From a virus, in the IMG/VR virus record IMGVR_UViG_3300037189_015965, positions 1 through 64,000 of that record: 64,000 bases of DNA; one strand, given 5' to 3'. The notes below the pieces were generated by a model. That model ran no database searches and was not told the DNA's origin. It saw nothing but the letters and a program-made list of their open reading frames with translations. A program made the position numbers and the translations under genes. Positions within the stretch are counted from its first letter, which is position 1; the number at the start of each line of letters is the position of its first letter. Shown here piece after piece: positions 14,236-51,907 of the stretch.

Positions 14236-15057
14236 ATGACAATTTCGTTAACTGGTAAAGTTGCCCTTAATGCAAATATTAATACTGAATTCCAGTTGGG
14301 TAATGCTATTTCAGCTTATCGTGGTGTTTCATATTATAAACCATCAACTTTAACTATTGGCACTTTTGATACTACTGATTTAAATTTTAGTGAGTTTCGT
14401 GGAACACAAAATAAAGTTACTGTTGATTTAACAATCTCGGTTGATACAAAAAATTATACTTTAAATCCAGCTGCGGTAAGCGGTTATGTAGCTAATTTTA
14501 CAAAAGTAAATTTAACTATTGATAGTGGAATTTATGTTGGTAGTAGTTCTACTGGTTCATATGCACTGACTATTACTGGATTTGCTGCTGGTGATACTGT
14601 TAATTTAATCAATAATGGTTTTATCATAGGGACTGGTGGTGCTGGCGGTAACGGTACTGGTGGTGCTGGCGGTAGTGGATCTCCTGGTGGTAATGCATTA
14701 TTGTTACAGTCTCCTGTAAACATTACAAATAATGGCACACTTGCTGGTGGTGGCGGTGGCGGAGGTGCAACTGACGGTGGAACAACTTATGGTAGTTGTT
14801 TAGGTGGTGGCAGTAGTTATAATGGAACTGGTGGTGGCGGCGGTGCTGGTTATGATCCTGGTGCTGGCGGTGCTAATGGTGGTAGTGCAGGTACAAGAAC
14901 ATCTGGTGGTGCTGGAGGAGCATCTGGCGGTGGTCCTGGACAAGCTGGTTCTACAAGTGGAAATGGTAGATCAGGTGGTGCTGCTGGTAAATATATCAAC
15001 GGTATAGCCTATGCAACATGGGTTGTTACTGGAACAAGACTTGGTGGAAGTAGTTAA
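14236..15057 (+). CDS. gp38-like polyglycine adhesin
   Basis: 273 residues. N-terminal NINTEFQLGNAISAYRGVSY and STLTIGTFDTTDLNFSEFRGT, as in phage glycine-rich tip proteins. After a beta domain (ISVDTKNYTLN) come at least five glycine motifs (GTGGAGGNGTGG, GGGGGGGATDGG, GGGGGAGYDPGAGG) separated by short variable loops, the architecture of T-even gp38, in which the loops recognise the outer-membrane receptor. It directly follows the split glycine-rich pair, so three adhesin-tip genes are adjacent. Confidence 0.75.
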   Translation: MTISLTGKVALNANINTEFQLGNAISAYRGVSYYKPSTLTIGTFDTTDLNFSEFRGTQNKVTVDLTISVDTKNYTLNPAAVSGYVANFTKVNLTIDSGIYVGSSSTGSYALTITGFAAGDTVNLINNGFIIGTGGAGGNGTGGAGGSGSPGGNALLLQSPVNITNNGTLAGGGGGGGATDGGTTYGSCLGGGSSYNGTGGGGGAGYDPGAGGANGGSAGTRTSGGAGGASGGGPGQAGSTSGNGRSGGAAGKYINGIAYATWVVTGTRLGGSS

Positions 15058-15066
15058 GGAATTAAA

Positions 15067-15429
15067 ATGGATACATTAACCGTAAAAGTTCATGAATATA
15101 ATGAAGAAAATCATAGTTTAGTTGTCAGTTTTACAACTGATGCAAGTGATATGAGTGTTGATGAAAGTGAAAAATACAGTTTTGATATTCATAATTACAA
15201 CCCAAATGATTTGAGCGATGCGCTTGCACAAATTGCAAAACAAGGTGCAGTTATTGCACACCAAAAATATCTTAAAGAACAAAGTAAAAAGAACGAGGAT
15301 GTTGTTACCGCAGCAAAGTCAGAAATTGGTAAGGTTTATAATTTTCCAATTGCTGATTTGATAAATGTAACAACTTATACATCTCCTGATGGCGATACTG
15401 GAAACATGACAGGCATCACAATTCTATGA
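15067..15429 (+). CDS. Hypothetical protein, fibre-cluster accessory
   Basis: 120 residues, start preceded by AAGGAATTAAA. A mixed alpha/beta protein, not repetitive: beta N-terminus (LTVKVHEYNEENHSLVVSF), central helix (LSDALAQIAKQGAVIAHQKYL) and a C-terminal NMTGITIL. It overlaps the next gene by 4 nt (ATGA). The position between adhesin and fibre genes suggests a fibre-assembly or attachment role. I do not recognise the family; it lacks the DSL motif of acyl carrier proteins, which I checked because of the nearby ketoacyl synthase. Confidence 0.6.
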   Translation: MDTLTVKVHEYNEENHSLVVSFTTDASDMSVDESEKYSFDIHNYNPNDLSDALAQIAKQGAVIAHQKYLKEQSKKNEDVVTAAKSEIGKVYNFPIADLINVTTYTSPDGDTGNMTGITIL

Positions 15430-16025
15430 GTATTATTACAGGTAATACAATTCATATTAGTAATTTTCCTATGCAATTAGCAAAGGTTACATTTGAAAAT
15501 GCTGGTGATGTAATTGATCAATCATTTTCATATCGTGGTATAGGTAAAGACATTACTATCTCTCGACATATTCTTATAAATGGTTGGGTTAATGTTGATG
15601 GTTATCTAAACGGAGAAAAGGTAGCTACTGAATATACTGAATCACCTTATATTTCAAGATTACGTCATGGAATTATAATAAGTCCAAATGGTGATTATGA
15701 TGTTGATCGTGTTGTATCAACTGCTACTGAAGATAATTCAAGTATTTTTTGCATATATCCTGCTACACAACGTGAACTTATTAATAATACTGAAAATGAA
15801 ATTGTAAAGGATAAAGTTTGGCGTATACCAAGTGGACAACCATTTCGTTTAAAAACAGGTAGATACTATTTTTCTAATGTTGATCTAGAAATAAATGGTC
15901 AAATACATAAAGCTCTTGAACCTATTGCTTGTGTATATAGAGAAGCAGATGTAATGCCTGCGGTAGATGCAGCTATTGCAGAATTTTGGGTTGAAAAAGT
16001 TTATATTTCTCTTAATAACTCTTAA
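15426..16025 (+). CDS. Hypothetical protein upstream of the ketoacyl synthase
   Basis: 199 residues, overlapping the previous gene by 4 nt. Non-repetitive and beta-rich (GNTIHISNFPMQLAKVTF, INGWVNVDGYLNGEKV), with a central ISPNGDYDVDRVV segment and a C-terminal AEFWVEKVYISL. One HSP-like or lipid-binding reading is possible but unsupported. Its stop region overlaps the late box that serves the ketoacyl synthase gene, so the two genes are physically linked. Function unknown. Confidence 0.6.
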   Translation: MSIITGNTIHISNFPMQLAKVTFENAGDVIDQSFSYRGIGKDITISRHILINGWVNVDGYLNGEKVATEYTESPYISRLRHGIIISPNGDYDVDRVVSTATEDNSSIFCIYPATQRELINNTENEIVKDKVWRIPSGQPFRLKTGRYYFSNVDLEINGQIHKALEPIACVYREADVMPAVDAAIAEFWVEKVYISLNNS

Positions 16026-16028
16026 ATA
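16021..16028 (+). promoter_or_regulatory. Late-type box placed for a leaderless mRNA
   Basis: CTTAAATA followed by five T and then the ATG at 16034. With T4 geometry transcription would start at the A of the ATG. No Shine-Dalgarno precedes the gene. Confidence 0.55.
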
Positions 16029-16033
16029 TTTTT

Positions 16034-17236
16034 ATGAAATCAAATATCGTTATTAGTGGTATGGGTGCTATTACTGCATGTGGTGTAGGTGTTGACCCAT
16101 TATGGCAAGCTGTTGTTAATAACCAAAGCAGTATTAAACCCATTGGACATCAATATAATCTAAAAAACAAAATTAAAATTGCAGCCAAAATCGAAAATTT
16201 TGTTCATACTGATTATTTTACAAGACAGACTCGTATAGATTTGTTTTCTGCATACGCTGCTATCGCAACACGTGAAGCAATTGCAGATAGTAAAATTTCA
16301 CAAGAAGAATTAAGTGATAGTAGAACAGGTATAATATTAGGTAATGGATTTCCTGCCGCAGAATCAATTTATAATTTTATTACAAAATTAAATGCTGAAT
16401 CACACTCTAATGATGTATTCACTATACCTCGTGCTATGACTAATGCCGCAATAAGTTATATTTGTATAGAAAATAAAATTTATGGACCAAGTTATCCAAT
16501 AGGTTCTGGTTGTTCTGCTGGTAATCAAGCAATAGGATTAGCTTTTCAACTTATAAGAGCAGGAATAATTGATCGTGCTATTGTTGGTGCAACTGAAGCA
16601 AGTCTTCAACCTTGGGTAATGCGTGCGTGGGAATATATGAACGCATTAAGCACAACTACAATTAAACCATTCAGTATTGATAGAGATGGTATTGTATTGG
16701 GTGAAGGCAGTGGTATGCTTATTTTAGAACGTGAAAGTGATGTTTTAGCAAGAGGGGTAAAACCACAAGCATATATTTTAGGTTACGGTACATCAAATGA
16801 TGCATTTCATTTAGTTCAGCCAGATAATTTAGGTCTTATTAAATCAATGCAAAGTGCATTAGAAGATTCTAATTTAGCTTTAGGTGATATTAATTACATA
16901 AATGCTCATGGAACTGGAACAAAATTAAATGATAAAAATGAAGTTGCTGGTATAAGACAAATATTTGGAAAATATGCAGATTCACTACCAATATCTTCTA
17001 CAAAACCAATACATGGGCATATGTTAGTGGCAACTGGTGCGATTGAAGCAATCATTACAATTAAATCTATTCAAAACAGTTTTGCACCGCCTACTATAAA
17101 CTTTACAACAGCAGACCCAGAGTGTGATATGGATGTAATTCCTAACACTGGTCGCAACATGAACATAGATTATGCACTGACAAGTAACTTTGCATTTGGT
17201 GGAATTAACTCCTCTTTAGTTATTGGCAAATACTGA
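16034..17236 (+). CDS. Beta-ketoacyl-ACP synthase (FabF/KAS II-like)
   Basis: 400 residues, the normal length for KAS I/II, which condense malonyl-ACP with an acyl chain. The thiolase-fold N-terminus (VISGMGAITACG) is present. The catalytic set looks complete: Cys160 in GSGCSAGNQAIG, His292 in NAHGTGTKLND and His329 in KPIHGHMLVATGA, plus the C-terminal SNFAFGGINSSL loop. The Cys motif is GSGCSAG rather than the usual TACS(S/A)G, so substrate choice may differ. It sits inside the tail-fibre operon with its own late-type box. A MaoC-like hotdog gene lies at 49231. Possible jobs are altering host lipids late in infection or priming an acyl or polyketide product; neither is shown. Confidence 0.88.
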   Translation: MKSNIVISGMGAITACGVGVDPLWQAVVNNQSSIKPIGHQYNLKNKIKIAAKIENFVHTDYFTRQTRIDLFSAYAAIATREAIADSKISQEELSDSRTGIILGNGFPAAESIYNFITKLNAESHSNDVFTIPRAMTNAAISYICIENKIYGPSYPIGSGCSAGNQAIGLAFQLIRAGIIDRAIVGATEASLQPWVMRAWEYMNALSTTTIKPFSIDRDGIVLGEGSGMLILERESDVLARGVKPQAYILGYGTSNDAFHLVQPDNLGLIKSMQSALEDSNLALGDINYINAHGTGTKLNDKNEVAGIRQIFGKYADSLPISSTKPIHGHMLVATGAIEAIITIKSIQNSFAPPTINFTTADPECDMDVIPNTGRNMNIDYALTSNFAFGGINSSLVIGKY

Positions 17237-17257: not shown

Positions 17258-17265
17258 TATAAATA
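17258..17265 (+). promoter_or_regulatory. Perfect T4 late promoter box
   Basis: TATAAATA, exact consensus, 19 nt before the fibre start at 17285; GCGGAG follows as ribosome-binding site. Confidence 0.9.
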
Positions 17266-17284: not shown

Positions 17285-20200
17285 ATGGCCTTACCACCAT
17301 CCCTTACACGTATACGTAATAACCAAGTTTATAATAGTGATATCTATGCTGATGCAAAGGTTGTTACAAAGTCTATTAGTGGTGGTCTTTTAAGCGATAA
17401 TTTTACCTATACAGGTAATATGACCATTGGAAATCTCACAATCAGTGGTAATACTACTACAATTGATACCACAAATCTTGTAATTGCTGATCCAATGTTT
17501 AGCATTAATCGAAATGCTACTGGTGTGCCTGCATATGATCTTGGTATGATTATGGGTCGTGGTAGTTCAACTAACGTAGCATTTATTTGGGAAGAAAATG
17601 CTCAACAGTTTCAATTACAATATACGACACAAAGTACTGCAAGTACTACATTTGGAATAATAAACAATAGTGGTTTTGCAAATTTACAAGTTTATGGATT
17701 AGCTGCAAGTAATGCTACAATTGGTAGTGCAAGTTTAACTACTCTTAATACAAGCAGCACAATAACATCAAGTGGAAATATTTGGGCTGCAAGTGGAACT
17801 GCATCTACAAATACAACAACTGGTGCGTTGGTTGTGACTGGTGGTGCTGGTGTTAGTGGTGCATTGGTAGTTGGAACTGGCATTTCTATGCAAGGCAATG
17901 GAACTATCGTAACTGATCAAACGACTGCAACCGTATTCAATACTGTTTCTACCACAGTGAACGCTTTCCAAGCTGCAACTGCACTATCAATGGGTGCAAC
18001 ATCTGGCTCGTTGACATTAAGAAATCCAACTATCGTTAGTTCTTCAACTGCTGTTACTTTGTTTAACACTGTTGCAACAACAATGAATTTTGCTGGTGCT
18101 GCTACTGCACTTAAAATGGGTGCTACAAGTGGAACAGCAAATATTGCTAATCCTTTCCTTATTGGTAGTCAAACTACACAAAGTTTATATGATAATGTTG
18201 CAACAACAATGAATTTTGCTGGTGCTGCTACTAATATTAATATTGGTGCCACATCTGGTCTAGTAACTATTAAAAATGCAACCTTAAACTTACCAAATAC
18301 TACACAAGTATTGATGAATGGCGCAAATCCAACAATTGATACAAGTTCTACTGGCACTGCATCTGTCTTTAATGCAAACACTACAACTGTAAACATTGGT
18401 GGAGCAGCAACAACAGTTAGCATTGGTGCTGATACTGGTACAACTACCGTTAATAATGATTTAAAAGCAGATAATTTTACTTCTACTGGTGGCGGTCAAC
18501 ACATTGGTTATATAACTGGTGCAATTGGTGCCAACACACCTAATACTGGTGTATTCACAACTGCAACCGTTAATGGTACACTTAACGCTGCAACATTAAA
18601 TGCTGGTTCAATCGGTAATAGTGGTGCTACATTCGGCGGTGCTAGTATGACTCTTACTGGTAACGTAAGTGTAAACGCTGTTAGTGCTGGTCAAATCGGT
18701 AACACAACTACTATACTTGAAGGCACTATTGGTAGTGCTACACCAAGTCAACCGAATATTACAAGTCTTGGTACTTTATCATCTCTAACTGTCAGCGGTG
18801 CCGTAAATGCTAACACATTTAATGGTGTAGCAGTTTATGCTGGCACTATTGGTAATACTGGTGCGGCAATTACTGCCTCGACTGCAACACTAACAGGAAC
18901 AGCAAACAGCTATGGCAGTGGTCAAGGTGCATTACAAATAACTGGCGGTTTCTACGCTGGCGGTGACTCTTATATTGCGGGTAACTTAACTGTTGCTAAT
19001 CTTACAAGTCTTGGAAGTACTTCGCTTGTTGCCAATGCTCCGCTATTATACCTTGCGGTATCGGGTTTTACCAATTATAACTATGAAATAGGTTTCTACA
19101 GCCACAAATACGATGCTGCTGTTGGGTATAACCATACTGGTATTGTAAGAAATCACATAGACAATGCATGGTATGTATTCAGTAATCTTCGATCAGAACC
19201 AAGCACAACTGTTGATCTTGCAAATGCGTATCTAATATATGATACTGTAAAACTTGGTAATATCATTGCTTATAGTGGCAACACATCAACATCAACAACA
19301 ACTGGTGCTGCTGTAATTTATGGTGGTATGGGTGTTGGTGGTAACATCTATGCTGCTGCAATCCAAAATACTCCAATTGGTAATGGAACTGCATCTACTG
19401 GTGCATTTACTACTCTTACAACAAGTAGCACTATTACATCACAGGGAACTGTTGCTGCTCCTACTTTAAATGCAGGAACTATTGGTAATGCTGGCGCTAC
19501 GATTAGTGGTGCAAGTATGACTCTCACTGGTAACATAAGTGTAAATGCAGTAAGTGCTGGACAGATTGGTAATACAAATACAATTCTTGAAGGAACTATC
19601 GCTAGTGTTAGTTCTAGTCAACCAAACATTACTTCAATTGGCACATTGAATAGTTTAACAGTAACAGGCAATGCTTCTGTTGGAAACTTAAACAGTGCGG
19701 GCCAAGTTATTGGTTACTTAAATGGTGCAATAGGTGCTAACGTTCCAAATAGTGCTGTATTTACTAGTCTTTTAACAACAACAAGTGGTGGTAATGGTAA
19801 TGCATATATTGCTGGTAACTTAATTGTTACTGGTAATATCAATGCTATAACCGCAAATGTTTATACACAAGGTGGTATTTTCTACGGTTTACCAGTAACT
19901 GGTATGAATGCACTTTATGCTGGTCAAACTGGTTATACTCCACTTGCTAACGTAGTGGCTCAATTTAGCGGTAATACTAATAACTATACACAAATAAACC
20001 TAGAAAATAGCAATACTGGCGCACAAGCAAGTGGTGATATTGTTGTTACTGCTGATAATGGAACAGATGTTGACACTTTTATTGATATGGGTATCAACGG
20101 CAGCGGTTATAGTCAAGCTGCTTTTAGTTTAACAAAAGCAAATGACGGTTATCTATATGTTGCTGGTAATACAACAACTGGTGGTGGTAACCTTGTAATT

Positions 20201-21460
20201 TCTACAACTACTGCTAACGATATCATTTACTCACTTGGTGGTGTGGCTAATGCAAATGAGTTTGCTCGTATGAGAGCAAATACAAATAGTTTTGTTATTA
20301 GTAGCACAACTGCAAGTACAACTACTAACACAGGTGCACTGCAAGTTCGTGGCGGCGCTGGTATTTCTGGTGATCTAAATGTTGGTGGTAATATAAATGG
20401 AACTACATCAAAGAATGTTCCAACAATTTATACAAGCAACATTTACCCATACGCAAATGCTGGCAATATTAATCTATACCCACAATTAAACACAAATGTT
20501 ACAGTTAATGCAAATCAAATTGTTGCAAACCTTGTTGTTCACGGTAATAGTGCAGCTGGTTATCAAAATCTACTTACAACTAATGGTGCAACTGGACAAG
20601 TTGGAATTAAAGTAGCACCAAGCCAAATAGTTGGTAACACATCTCTGCAAATTAATGGCACAGATTCTATGATTATTCCAACTGGTGCACAGGCAAATCG
20701 TCCAAGTAATGCACAACAAGGTATGATACGTTTTAATACCAACAGCAGTCAATTGGAATTTTATACTGGAACAACTTGGAGTGGAACTGGGACTGCGTTT
20801 ACTATTATTACAGCAGATCAGTTTGTTGGTGATGGCAGTCAAACTAACTTTACATTAAGTCAAAGCACTACTACCGCAGGCACTTTGGTTTCAATTAATG
20901 GTGTTATACAGCTTCCAACTACTGCCTATAGTGTAAGTGGCACGACTCTTACATTTACAGAAGCACCATTAAGCACTGATATAATTGACGCACGTGCTCT
21001 TACTACAACAGGAACTGTTACAAGCATAACTGATGCTACTGGCGGTAATACAGTTGTTGCAAACACTGGTGGTGTATATACAACAGCAGTTAACAGTGTT
21101 GCACATCTTGCAAATAGTAGTGGTAATTTCTTTGGTGGTGGTATCAGCACATTAAGCGCAAATACAAGTTTAAGTGCGGGTGTTCCAACCATAATTGATA
21201 GTTTTTCAACAAGCACGTATCGTGGTGCAAAATATGTTGTTACATTGAGTGATTATACAAACAATAACTTTACACTTGCTGAAGTAGTTCTTGTGTGTGG
21301 CAGTAGCAACGCAAGTGTTCAAACCTATGGTGTAGTAAGCGCAAATGGAACTAGTATTGGTAACTTCTACGCTAACGTAAGTGGAACAACCGCAAGACTT
21401 TATGCAAACGCAGGCGTGTCAAGTTATGCTAAAGTCCAACAAATTTACATGCCTTTATAA
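17285..21460 (+). CDS. Giant tail fibre protein
   Basis: 1391 residues. N-terminus MALPPSLTRIRNNQVYNSDIY, then a TGNTTTIDTTNLVIADP motif typical of fibre heads. It has three TTGA(L/A)VV..GG.GV.G modules. It has two blocks of SGASMTLTGN(I/V)SVNAVSAGQIGNT (split) shared almost verbatim with 9201. A VTADNGTDVDTFIDMGING module is shared with 892 and 52631. Its C-terminal tip is GMIRFNTNSSQLEFYTG, GDGSQTNFTLSQ, then IIDSFSTSTYRGAKY, the last 90 residues being paralogous to those of 9201. It appears to be a mosaic of modules circulating among the fibre genes of this phage. Confidence 0.87.
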   Translation: MALPPSLTRIRNNQVYNSDIYADAKVVTKSISGGLLSDNFTYTGNMTIGNLTISGNTTTIDTTNLVIADPMFSINRNATGVPAYDLGMIMGRGSSTNVAFIWEENAQQFQLQYTTQSTASTTFGIINNSGFANLQVYGLAASNATIGSASLTTLNTSSTITSSGNIWAASGTASTNTTTGALVVTGGAGVSGALVVGTGISMQGNGTIVTDQTTATVFNTVSTTVNAFQAATALSMGATSGSLTLRNPTIVSSSTAVTLFNTVATTMNFAGAATALKMGATSGTANIANPFLIGSQTTQSLYDNVATTMNFAGAATNINIGATSGLVTIKNATLNLPNTTQVLMNGANPTIDTSSTGTASVFNANTTTVNIGGAATTVSIGADTGTTTVNNDLKADNFTSTGGGQHIGYITGAIGANTPNTGVFTTATVNGTLNAATLNAGSIGNSGATFGGASMTLTGNVSVNAVSAGQIGNTTTILEGTIGSATPSQPNITSLGTLSSLTVSGAVNANTFNGVAVYAGTIGNTGAAITASTATLTGTANSYGSGQGALQITGGFYAGGDSYIAGNLTVANLTSLGSTSLVANAPLLYLAVSGFTNYNYEIGFYSHKYDAAVGYNHTGIVRNHIDNAWYVFSNLRSEPSTTVDLANAYLIYDTVKLGNIIAYSGNTSTSTTTGAAVIYGGMGVGGNIYAAAIQNTPIGNGTASTGAFTTLTTSSTITSQGTVAAPTLNAGTIGNAGATISGASMTLTGNISVNAVSAGQIGNTNTILEGTIASVSSSQPNITSIGTLNSLTVTGNASVGNLNSAGQVIGYLNGAIGANVPNSAVFTSLLTTTSGGNGNAYIAGNLIVTGNINAITANVYTQGGIFYGLPVTGMNALYAGQTGYTPLANVVAQFSGNTNNYTQINLENSNTGAQASGDIVVTADNGTDVDTFIDMGINGSGYSQAAFSLTKANDGYLYVAGNTTTGGGNLVISTTTANDIIYSLGGVANANEFARMRANTNSFVISSTTASTTTNTGALQVRGGAGISGDLNVGGNINGTTSKNVPTIYTSNIYPYANAGNINLYPQLNTNVTVNANQIVANLVVHGNSAAGYQNLLTTNGATGQVGIKVAPSQIVGNTSLQINGTDSMIIPTGAQANRPSNAQQGMIRFNTNSSQLEFYTGTTWSGTGTAFTIITADQFVGDGSQTNFTLSQSTTTAGTLVSINGVIQLPTTAYSVSGTTLTFTEAPLSTDIIDARALTTTGTVTSITDATGGNTVVANTGGVYTTAVNSVAHLANSSGNFFGGGISTLSANTSLSAGVPTIIDSFSTSTYRGAKYVVTLSDYTNNNFTLAEVVLVCGSSNASVQTYGVVSANGTSIGNFYANVSGTTARLYANAGVSSYAKVQQIYMPL

Positions 21461-48254: not shown

Positions 48255-49178
48255 TTACTTGACTACTGACCAAGCCTTTTTGCTTTCTGCCTTTTGTGCT
48301 GCAGTCAATGGAATATAGTCAAGTGCTTCTGCGTCCTTGTCATTTGCATAACCATATTCAAAGAACTTAATTGCCGCTTGAACTGCTTCTTTGTTATCAT
48401 TTTCTTTGTTTAGAACAATGTAACTTGTAGCAACCATTGGCCAAGTTGTTTGGAAAGCCTTAAGACCAGGTGAAACCTTCTTACCATCCTTGCCAATCAT
48501 ATCAGCAACAGTAAGATCATTTTGCTTGGCAAAAGCATATTCTACATAACCAATGGAACCATTTGTCTGGTAAACGTTGTTTGCAACACCGTCATTACCC
48601 TTTGCTCCGATTGCACCGCCAACCCATTCAACAGTTTGACCAGTTCCATACTTCTTCTTCCAATCTTCATTGGCTTCTGTAAGAAACTTTGTAAAATTCC
48701 AAGTTGTGCCACTACCATCAGCACGACGAATCTTGATAATTGGAAGGTCTGGAAGTTTTACACCTGAATTAAGGTCTGCAATTTCCTTGTCATTCCAACG
48801 ACGAATCTTTTCACTATAAATTTTTGCAAGAATGTCTGTTGTTAATGTTAGATGGTCAACATCCTTAAGATTAATAATTGGAACAATACCACCAACGATC
48901 ATTGGGAATTGAACTTGACCTTTCTTTTCAAGGTCTTCTGGCTTTACTGGAATATCTGTAGCACCAAAATTTACTGTCTTTGCTTCAATTTGCTTGATAC
49001 CTGCACCACTACCAATACCTTGATAATTAATGACATTACCAGTGGCCTTCTTATAACCTTCTGCCCACTTCATATAAATTGGTTGTGGGAAAGTAGCACC
49101 TGCACCTGTAACTTCTACTGCAAAAGCAGCAGTACTAATAAGTGTTGCGGCTGCAACAGCAATAAACCTAGTAAGCAT
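48255..49178 (-). CDS. pstS: Periplasmic phosphate-binding protein PstS
   Basis: 307 residues. Signal peptide MLTRFIAVAAATLISTAAFA, then VTGAGATFPQPIYMKWAE, the start of mature PstS. Phosphate ligands are in the expected places: GAGATFP, GIGSGAGIKQI, GATDIPV and RRADGSGTTWNF. PstS captures phosphate in the periplasm for the host PstCAB transporter; no pstC, A or B is present, so it must feed the host complex. Start preceded by AAAAGGAGAG. A Pho box sits at 49222-49238, so expression should follow host phosphate starvation. Known as an auxiliary gene of marine cyanophages; here in a different T4-like lineage. Confidence 0.96.
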   Translation of the reverse strand: MLTRFIAVAAATLISTAAFAVEVTGAGATFPQPIYMKWAEGYKKATGNVINYQGIGSGAGIKQIEAKTVNFGATDIPVKPEDLEKKGQVQFPMIVGGIVPIINLKDVDHLTLTTDILAKIYSEKIRRWNDKEIADLNSGVKLPDLPIIKIRRADGSGTTWNFTKFLTEANEDWKKKYGTGQTVEWVGGAIGAKGNDGVANNVYQTNGSIGYVEYAFAKQNDLTVADMIGKDGKKVSPGLKAFQTTWPMVATSYIVLNKENDNKEAVQAAIKFFEYGYANDKDAEALDYIPLTAAQKAESKKAWSVVK

Positions 49179-49221: not shown

Positions 49222-49238
49222 ATGACAGTATTATGACA
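49222..49238 (-). promoter_or_regulatory. Pho box and promoter of pstS
   Basis: Two TGTCAT half-sites on the minus strand (49233-49238 and 49222-49227) exactly 11 nt apart, as PhoB sites require, with GATAAAT about 9 nt downstream as -10 element. The first half-site lies in the 3' end of the MaoC-like gene. Confidence 0.8.
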
Positions 49239-49596
49239 AACTACAAATAATCCAATCACCACTGCAATATTCCATATCACCACTTATTTCCCAACTTATT
49301 TTAGAAATACGAAATTTTAATGGTGTATAGTTAAACGTTATGTTTACTGGTGTATCTGCAATAAGTGGATTACTAAATTTGCAATCCATTTTAACAGTCA
49401 TGCTATCGTTAAATATTAGTGAAAAGTTACCTAATTCTATCGCTATTTTAGACCATTGTGGTAACATGCTTAAAATCAATCCACCTTGCACAATACCACC
49501 TTCAACATGAATTGCGCTGTCATCGCCAGTTAAATTAGCAAAATCTAATACTTGTTGCTTTGTAACAATAATGGGAATGGTATGTGAAAGTGTCAT
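49231..49596 (-). CDS. MaoC-like hotdog-fold protein
   Basis: 121 residues. VTKQQVLDFANLTGDDSAIHVE matches the MaoC / (R)-enoyl-CoA hydratase signature ('F..lsGD.NpiH.d') with catalytic Asp and His. GGIVQGGLILSMLPQ is the following hotdog helix. Length matches single-hotdog hydratases. These enzymes hydrate or dehydrate acyl-CoA or acyl-ACP. With the ketoacyl synthase at 16034 the phage encodes two activities of acyl-chain elongation. Its ATG overlaps the stop of the methyltransferase (ATGA). Confidence 0.8.
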   Translation of the reverse strand: MTLSHTIPIIVTKQQVLDFANLTGDDSAIHVEGGIVQGGLILSMLPQWSKIAIELGNFSLIFNDSMTVKMDCKFSNPLIADTPVNITFNYTPLKFRISKISWEISGDMEYCSGDWIICSLS

Positions 49597-50678
49597 TCAA
49601 ATGTAAACAGATTACTGTCTAAACGTTGTTCAGGTGGATCAATGCGATCTTCTGCCAAATCAATATATTCTGGATTAAGTTCAATTAAAGTAGCATTACG
49701 TCCAAGACGATTGCTTACCAATCCAGTTGTGCCACTGCCGCCAAATGGGTCTAATACCATACCATCTTTTGGGCAACCTGCTAAAATACAAGGTTCAATC
49801 AAATCTGTTGGAAATGTGGCAAAATGTGCACCTTTATAAGGTTTTGTTGTGACAGTCCAAACACTACGCTTTTGTCGCATACCATCATAGATTTTATATT
49901 CTGGTGGACGACCATTTACACCAAACTCTGCTTGACGTTCCGCACTGCCTTTTGCCGCTTTTGTACCAGCAGGTATTACACCTTCTTCTTTAATTGCTTC
50001 ATGGTCAAAGTAATAATTCTTGCTTTTGCTTAACAAAAAGATATATTCATGTGCCTTTGTGCAACGGTCTTTCACACTTTCTGGCATTGGGTTTGGTTTG
50101 TGCCAAATAATGTCTTGACGCAAATACCAACCATCGGCACGTAGAGCAAATGCTAACATCCATGGAATACCAATAAGGTCTTTGCTTTTAAGACCATCTA
50201 ATTTATTATTACGACTTGGGCTGAAACTTGGCAAATCTTGGTCAGTTTTTGCTACACTTTGCTTAACAAATGCAGTTCCACTGCGATAATTGTAATAACT
50301 ATCACCAATGTTTACCCAAAGTGTGCCATCATCTTTAAGAACACGACGAACTTCACGGAATACTTCTACTAATTGTTGAATATATTCTTCTGGTGTTTGT
50401 TCAAGACCAATCTGGTTATCACTTGAGGTTGCGCCACACTTTTCACAAGTTCCACGAAACTTGAATACATTACCACCTTGGTCACGGTCAGCACGTTCAC
50501 CGCCATGTGCGGCAATCTTTTCAACATGATCACAATTAGAATCACCACCACTCCATGTAGCAGTTTTGTAATCACGCAATCCATAATAAGGTGGTGATGT
50601 TACACACATGTTTACACTTTCATCTGCCAATGTTTTCAAAACATCACGGCAATCACCTTGTAATATTTGGACGCCCAT
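49593..50678 (-). CDS. DNA methyltransferase (SPPY type)
   Basis: 361 residues. Catalytic SPPYYG at residues 28-33 and SAM-binding DPFGGSGTTGLVSNRLGR near the C-terminus: the order of beta-class N4-cytosine/N6-adenine methyltransferases. A C-D-H...C-E-K-C zinc-like pair lies at about residues 49-82. SPPY favours N4-cytosine or N6-adenine, not resolvable here. It abuts the second methyltransferase (TAATG) and is weakly paralogous at the N-terminus (ILQGDCRDVLKTL versus ILHGDCREQLKTL). No cognate restriction enzyme adjoins, so protection of phage DNA is the likely role. Confidence 0.92.
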   Translation of the reverse strand: MGVQILQGDCRDVLKTLADESVNMCVTSPPYYGLRDYKTATWSGGDSNCDHVEKIAAHGGERADRDQGGNVFKFRGTCEKCGATSSDNQIGLEQTPEEYIQQLVEVFREVRRVLKDDGTLWVNIGDSYYNYRSGTAFVKQSVAKTDQDLPSFSPSRNNKLDGLKSKDLIGIPWMLAFALRADGWYLRQDIIWHKPNPMPESVKDRCTKAHEYIFLLSKSKNYYFDHEAIKEEGVIPAGTKAAKGSAERQAEFGVNGRPPEYKIYDGMRQKRSVWTVTTKPYKGAHFATFPTDLIEPCILAGCPKDGMVLDPFGGSGTTGLVSNRLGRNATLIELNPEYIDLAEDRIDPPEQRLDSNLFTFE

Positions 50679-51907
50679 TATTCTTCCTCAAATAGATTAT
50701 TGTATGTAGTAATTTTATCTTCAACTTGTGCTACCTTTTTTTCTACCACAGCAATTCGTGCTTTAGCAATTTCAACATATTCTTCACTCATTTCAATACC
50801 AATAAAATTAAAACCTTCTAACACAGCACCACGACCAGTAGAACCACTGCCAGTAAATGGGTCTAGGACTGTTCCACCAGTTGGAGTGATCATTTTGCAC
50901 AAATAACGCATTAAATCAGTAGGTTTTACAGTAGGATGTGTGTTTTTACGTATTGATGCACCACGTTGATATGCATTATCCGCATCCTTTTTACGACCAT
51001 CATTGGTCTTGCCACCTTCAAAATCATCTAAACCATCATTGCGGTCTGTATTATTTGCCTTCGCACAATAAAAAAACTTTTCCCATTCTGTTTCTATGCT
51101 ACCATCATGGATAAAGTTTGCTGGCCAACGACCTAATGGATTATCAACAAGTTCCGCTTTTGCTTCACTATCTGTTGTCCAAATACCACCTCGTGGTGTA
51201 ACCCACTTTTTTGCACCTTCTCCAACTCGTGATGCATCAATATTCAATGCACCGACACCCCATTGCAATACATTATCTGCAATAGTTTTTTCACTTATTG
51301 GCTTACGTGCAACACAAATTGGTTCATGTGATGGTTTAAGTGCTGTCCCCCAACCTTGCCACTTTTTTGCTTCTGGGGTTGCTGGTTCATCATAAATGAT
51401 TCGTTCTGAGGTAGTTTCACTGGCATCATCTTTAATAATACCACCACTACGTGCGCCGCCGCTCCATACTCTACCACCAACAGTTCTTTCAGCACCAGCA
51501 GCATTGTCAATTGCCTTGCTTATATCATGATTCTTTGGAAATCCTGTTCCATAAACCCACATAATCTGGTCACGTATTTCAAAACCAGCCAATCTAATTG
51601 CTGTGACACCTAAATCATAAGTTCTTGAACCAAAGAATGATAACATATGACCGCCTGGTTTAAGAACACGCAAACATTCACGCCATACACTTGGTCCTGG
51701 AACAAAACTGTCCCAACTTTTACCCATAAAACCCTTGCCAGTATGTTCATAGTCATCACCATTTAACCAGTGACGAAGAACTTCTGTCATATCTGGTTCA
51801 ACACTTAAACCATAAGGTGGATCAGTCACAATGCTATCAATGCTATTGTCGGGTAGAGTTTTGAGTTGTTCACGGCAGTCACCGTGCAGTATCTTTACAT
51901 CAGCCAT
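50678..51907 (-). CDS. DNA methyltransferase (DPPY type)
   Basis: 409 residues. TDPPYGL at residues 28-34, DPFTGSGSTGRGAVLEG near residue 353 and THPTVKP before it are the hallmarks of beta-class N6-adenine/N4-cytosine methyltransferases. The middle (about residues 130-300) is a large target-recognition region with GGARSGG and ATPEAKKWQGWG motifs. First gene of a three-gene unit (50678, 49593, 49231). A TTGACT/TATAAA promoter ends 7 nt before its 'ATGGCTG' start. Confidence 0.92.
   Translation of the reverse strand: MADVKILHGDCREQLKTLPDNSIDSIVTDPPYGLSVEPDMTEVLRHWLNGDDYEHTGKGFMGKSWDSFVPGPSVWRECLRVLKPGGHMLSFFGSRTYDLGVTAIRLAGFEIRDQIMWVYGTGFPKNHDISKAIDNAAGAERTVGGRVWSGGARSGGIIKDDASETTSERIIYDEPATPEAKKWQGWGTALKPSHEPICVARKPISEKTIADNVLQWGVGALNIDASRVGEGAKKWVTPRGGIWTTDSEAKAELVDNPLGRWPANFIHDGSIETEWEKFFYCAKANNTDRNDGLDDFEGGKTNDGRKKDADNAYQRGASIRKNTHPTVKPTDLMRYLCKMITPTGGTVLDPFTGSGSTGRGAVLEGFNFIGIEMSEEYVEIAKARIAVVEKKVAQVEDKITTYNNLFEEE

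Follow-up and report, generated by a model that had tools for sequence, protein, structure and literature searches.

A complete beta-ketoacyl synthase of an accessory lineage, preceded by a late-type box, in the tail-fibre region of a freshwater jumbo phage

Why would a giant phage carry an enzyme of acyl-chain condensation among its tail-fibre genes, and what could such an enzyme be for? The question is raised by a beta-ketoacyl synthase (KAS) gene found in a 64,000-nucleotide stretch of viral DNA (the window hereafter, that is, the whole stretch that was analysed), which lies in the following setting.

14236 to 15057, plus strand: glycine-rich protein that weakly resembles GP38-type tail-fibre adhesins
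15067 to 15429, plus strand: 120-aa fibre-operon protein, with 99 N-terminal residues common to KAS-less phages and an allele-specific C-terminus
15426 to 16025, plus strand: 199-aa all-beta protein, tentatively a bicupin, in an allele present with KAS in 8/8 contigs
16023 to 16028, plus strand: TAAATA, the late-type box of KAS, at -11 from the ATG, with no Shine-Dalgarno site and of an apparently leaderless class
16034 to 17236, plus strand: beta-ketoacyl synthase, 400 aa from an ATG start, with catalytic C160/H292/H329 and K324
17258 to 17265, plus strand: TATAAATA, a box that resembles a late promoter and belongs to the fibre gene that follows, at the right border of the cassette discussed below
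17285 to 21460, plus strand: 1391-aa fibre-like protein, downstream of KAS

The reading that we prefer, and that we think stands about an even chance of being right, is that of a late condensing enzyme of an accessory KAS lineage that would work on host acyl-ACP, perhaps together with a MaoC-like enzyme, and would thereby alter acyl groups of the envelope.

The virus itself can be described with some precision. The record from which the window was taken (111,185 bp) matches, with 100% identity, a section of a 338,435-bp contig, the ends of which overlap by 123 bp, so that the genome closes at about 338.3 kb and the virus is a freshwater jumbo phage of ~338 kb. Its terminase is closest to those of Pseudomonas phages PA5oct/MIJ3 (54%), Agrobacterium phage Atu_ph07 (52%) and Sinorhizobium phage Phosso (50%), then to those of GAP32/Serratia BF-type jumbo phages, with T4-type phages further down; the label 'T4-like' given in the preliminary description is thus apt in a wide sense but not in the strict sense of Straboviridae. 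Over twenty tRNA genes are found in this genome (G001), in clusters with short gaps in L070-L071 and L080-L082, as well as a phage-encoded tmRNA gene on the minus strand (L066:330-694) with the tag peptide ANDNAPVEMRLAA. KAS is flanked by structural genes on both sides in eight contigs and is a metabolic gene in an authentic viral genome, with no host flank; host contamination or a prophage edge was ruled out by the complete 338-kb phage genome and by these structural genes.

The claim that the KAS open reading frame is complete, with all its catalytic residues, proved correct. The two Pfam ketoacyl-synt domains together span the whole protein at scores well above cut-off (N-terminal 3.9e-37, C-terminal 8.3e-30), solved FabF structures (PDB 4ls5, 1j3n and 1e5m) match it end to end, and Cys160, His292, Lys324 and His329 fall, in the alignment, on the active-site residues of FabF. 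The best NCBIfam model is TIGR03150 fabF (E 9e-110), against which KAS scores 367 bits, that is, below the curated equivalog cut-off of 493.75, and PHROGs returned no match. Eight IMG/VR contigs encode KAS, with 73-100% identity and a length of exactly 399-400 aa. The four catalytic residues are invariant in all eight, and Cys160, the loss of which in relatives had been singled out as telling against activity, has been lost in none. Also invariant in 8/8 are Phe388 and the FGG loop, which we take to be a FabF-type gate. The setting of the nucleophile (GSGCSAG), first described as unusual, turns out to be merely mildly odd in its GSGC, the phage relatives having GAGC and the nearest cellular KAS GSAC or ATAC. 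A chance reading frame was rejected on the strength of an E-value of 1e-110 and conservation in eight contigs. With a median pairwise dN/dS of 0.16 (28 pairs), comparable to the 0.12-0.24 of neighbouring genes of the fibre operon, KAS is under purifying selection. Judged by its sequence, it is a complete member of the KAS I/II superfamily with an intact active site, from which a condensing activity is predicted.

As for its origin, cellular KAS were searched in 398 Pseudomonadota genomes and in 199 genomes from the phylum of the Bryobacterales match. The best of them are 36-39% identical to the phage protein over its full length, and recent transfer from a known donor was rejected because no full-length cellular KAS above about 40% was found. 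The KAS phylogeny that had been proposed as a check gave a clear answer: the phage clade groups with accessory bacterial KAS of the ACP-KAS-MaoC type (L151, L153, L155 and L168; support 100/98) and stands apart from the clade holding FabF-type sequences (a second tree left out MW202545, L050 and L133, which formed long branches in the first). A housekeeping FabF was ruled out by this position and by the sub-cut-off TIGR03150 score, and the protein is best assigned, on both grounds, to an accessory lineage. The operons of these four bacterial KAS hold an ACP and one or two MaoC domains, a glycosyltransferase of family 21 being present in two of them, with an adjoining SDR in one of the two. Taken together with the MaoC-like gene described below, the tree position suggests that the phage has representatives of two neighbours in one accessory bacterial operon. 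Nothing was found in the literature that identifies this ACP-KAS-MaoC operon. Among annotated phage records searched by tblastn, no relative had a KAS of this lineage; most of the 'phage' records with a KAS that were retrieved in this way are unannotated and short or host-like, and were excluded as evidence. A wider, alignment-based viral scan, which was non-exhaustive as it used short conserved peptides, added no phage KAS to those from the single-sequence scan.

Is the position of KAS among fibre genes meaningful? The gene order (glycine-rich gp38-like, 120-aa and 199-aa proteins, KAS, late box, large fibre-like protein) places it between adhesin-like and fibre-like genes, in agreement with the earlier statement that it lies inside a tail-fibre operon. 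However, sister phages (L107-L109 and G626) have the same operon without KAS, the fibre gene following after about 40 nt. In these sisters, the first 99 residues of the 120-aa protein are retained and a different C-terminus follows, and a 180-182-aa homologue (24-31% identity) takes the place of the 199-aa protein, the allele of which, when used in a scan, gave matches solely in the eight KAS contigs. These sister operons and the distribution of the allele suggest that KAS is carried, along with one allele of the pair, by a cassette that undergoes exchange. Cassette exchange in a variable region could also explain the placement, and linkage by itself proves nothing. The model of the 199-aa protein (pLDDT 88) is all-beta and bicupin-like, with weak structural matches (TM at most 0.54). 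The module formed by the 120-aa and bicupin-like 199-aa proteins (15067-16025) was also seen 3' of glycine-rich adhesin-like genes in quite different phages (L110 and L111).

When would KAS be expressed? That it has a late-type box of its own, as originally proposed, is well founded: TAAATA at -11 is kept in 8/8 relatives although the surrounding bases vary, and the boxes of a genome-wide class lie most often at just this position. In the window, the box and the upstream stop codon share bases, but they do not in L003-L008, which means that the box is not conserved on account of that stop. TATAAATA is not the KAS box, since this exact T4 consensus, at 17258, is that of the gene which follows; the window has three exact copies of the motif, fewer than shuffles give (about 11). 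The core TAAATA, by contrast, is enriched genome-wide within 60 nt before starts (96 vs 6 expected) and falls into two classes. In the first, it lies around -22 to -32 and is then followed by a Shine-Dalgarno-like site in 25/37 cases. In the second, it lies at -9 to -15 with a peak at -11, and a Shine-Dalgarno-like site is present in 1/31; this class of 31 genes (L066-L082 of G001), against 0.8 on average, and never more than 4, for random sites, includes the gene for the large subunit of the terminase as well as KAS. If transcription starts a few bases 3' of the box, as in T4-type late promoters, the KAS message would be leaderless, and the class as a whole suggests leaderless late mRNAs, that of the terminase included. 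This apparently leaderless late promoter class, shared by KAS and the terminase, represents a second testable point, which concerns gene expression in this phage group.

The possible partner of KAS lies elsewhere in the window.

49231 to 49596, minus strand: MaoC-like hotdog protein P0002, 121 aa, with invariant D25 and H30
49593 to 50678, minus strand: DNA methylase (N6_N4_Mtase), which shares 4 nt with the MaoC-like gene and was used to locate the empty MaoC site

Although P0002 has no match to Pfam MaoC_dehydratas, even at E 10, its first description as a MaoC-like hotdog protein is upheld by three lines of evidence, that is, (i) a hydratase-like motif with Asp25 and His30 invariant in seven phage homologues, (ii) an AF2 model of moderate quality (pLDDT 75, TM about 0.55) with a hotdog fold, for which the best PDB matches in Foldseek (E 1e-4) are the (R)-hydratase PhaJ of A. 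caviae, human HTD2 and HadAB, and (iii) a profile comparison that aligns the catalytic D/H with those of MaoC in the bacterial operons (probability 62, E 7e-5). By predicted fold and conserved D/H, P0002 is a putative MaoC-like hydratase/dehydratase. Its gene is about 32 kb from KAS, on the other strand and in a DNA-methylase operon that has no late box in front and a weak sigma70-like match (9/12) ahead of it. Two adjacent, divergent N6/N4 DNA methylases are encoded here (49593-51907, minus strand), the relatives of which abound in IMG/VR, and a phage-encoded PstS phosphate-binding protein (48255-49178, minus strand) adjoins the operon. The lack of a late box means that MaoC may be expressed earlier than KAS. 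The idea that it supplies a second step of acyl elongation thus gains from the ACP-KAS-MaoC operons and from the matched presence/absence described next, but the two steps may occur at different times.

Four contigs cover both sites. The window's virus (G001) and G003 have both KAS and MaoC; G616 and G626 have neither, but do have the methylase neighbour, and their fibre operon is contiguous across the KAS site. This co-occurrence is suggestive but not significant (Fisher p about 0.17, uncorrected for kinship among four contigs that are phylogenetically non-independent), and the matched presence and absence among sister phages offers a natural comparison. Searches of the phage genome for an ACP, an SDR ketoreductase and an acyltransferase of the PlsC type (the one acyltransferase family searched) found none, while positive controls were detected in each case, which means that host partners would be needed. 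A complete fatty-acid synthesis pathway in the phage was ruled out by these empty searches and that for Pfam MaoC.

Put together, these elements outline how the preferred late condensing enzyme might work. KAS would be translated late, from a transcript of its own that is apparently leaderless, and, as a decarboxylating condensing enzyme, would join malonyl-ACP with acyl-ACP, both presumably from the host because the phage has no recognisable ACP. The 3-ketoacyl product would be reduced by a host ketoreductase, and the phage MaoC-like enzyme could then dehydrate it or, in reverse, hydrate an enoyl. Most likely, the enzyme would serve to change, at a late stage, which acyl groups, by length or type, are available to the lipids of the host envelope or to lipid-linked glycans. 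The phage also has a sugar-nucleotide cluster (L011:9401-18476; record G000, 93.4-102.5 kb) with a GDP-mannose 4,6-dehydratase, a C-methyltransferase, epimerases and proteins without Pfam match, which is compatible with remodelling of the envelope or surface.

The most serious rival, unlikely but far from implausible, is that KAS is an ordinary auxiliary metabolic gene that boosts the host's fatty-acid supply, with MaoC unrelated and the place in the fibre operon that of incidental cargo beside a late promoter. Viral fabF, fabG and fabZ are indeed known from viromes (PMC10653327; PMC12783922), KAS is an insertion that is present or absent in otherwise collinear operons, and the missing late box of the MaoC operon fits with two unrelated genes. 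Against it stand a KAS that is outside the housekeeping FabF clade and below the FabF equivalog cut-off, and the match of KAS and MaoC presence in 4/4 informative contigs.

A bolder view, which we consider rather improbable, is that of a late two-enzyme pathway derived from a bacterial accessory operon, in which KAS and MaoC would make a dedicated product that goes with one allele of the fibre module, be it a modified envelope lipid, a lipid-linked glycan or an acylated virion component. If true, host-surface chemistry and fibre type would be exchanged together.

It is decidedly unlikely, in our opinion, that KAS serves to make or transfer an acyl group destined for the fibre or another virion protein. 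Such a role would suit its place in the fibre operon, its strict association with the 199-aa allele (8/8 contigs, against divergent 180-182-aa alleles without KAS) and the late-type promoter class that it shares with the terminase. However, the PlsC search revealed no acyltransferase to attach the group, co-inheritance of neighbours is what cassette exchange predicts anyway, and the 199-aa family exists without KAS, which means that its basic role needs no KAS.

Two readings without catalysis fare worse. A repurposed decoy, for example one that binds host acyl-ACP to inhibit host lipid synthesis, would account for a KAS that is alone in the genome, with neither ACP nor reductase, but is very improbable, since a protein that only binds need not keep all catalytic residues, whereas in eight relatives the four of KAS, like Phe388 and the FGG loop, show no variation, and dN/dS is low. 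A neutral hitchhiker on the exchanged fibre cassette, which the clean presence/absence between collinear phages might suggest, is already disfavoured and hardly credible given purifying selection like that on neighbouring fibre genes, an exact 399-400 aa in eight divergent contigs and a promoter box of its own kept in 8/8.

If the KAS-MaoC pair is active, the preferred reading would have a phage steer acyl-chain elongation via an accessory, non-housekeeping KAS under late control, and it would become testable whether giant phages alter envelope lipids together with fibre type.

How does this compare with known systems? FabF/KAS II (TIGR03150) has the same fold over the full length, the C-H-H plus Lys site and the gating Phe with its FGG loop. 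In FabF, a basic patch binds ACP, and it is in the region carrying these basic residues that the phage KAS differs by a two-residue deletion. Closer, as the best-supported sister group, are the accessory KAS of ACP-KAS-MaoC(-SDR-GT21) operons (L200, L203, L206 and L208), which have SSTKPxHGH and SFAFGGxN-type motifs in common with the phage KAS and, like the phage, a MaoC-type partner, but the ACP and the SDR are lacking in the phage. P0002 shares its predicted fold and D/H motif with PhaJ of A. caviae, human HTD2 and mycobacterial HadAB, but is short and divergent, without significant Pfam match. Among phages, Caudoviricetes sp. ctpbd312 (MW202545; L113:11779-12723) has a KAS-like gene beside structural genes that keeps the Cys, HGT and GH motifs; its product, at 314 aa, is truncated at the N-terminal end, is about 26% identical over half of the protein and sits on a very long branch, and is not of the phage KAS lineage. 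In the literature, as far as our partial coverage goes, no report was found of a jumbo phage with a KAS of this lineage, a late-type promoter in front of it and a MaoC partner. Published viral fab genes, whether fabF, fabG and fabZ recorded in viromes as auxiliary metabolic genes (PMC10653327; PMC12783922) or fabG-acpP-fabF in predicted Rhodobacteraceae prophages (PMC8224337), are annotations at the level of reads, vOTUs or prophages, whereas the KAS described here is in a structural-gene operon of a ~338-kb jumbo phage, under late-type control and conserved in its clade. Viral fab genes were already known, and what is new here is the lineage of this KAS, its regulation and its pairing with a MaoC-like gene.
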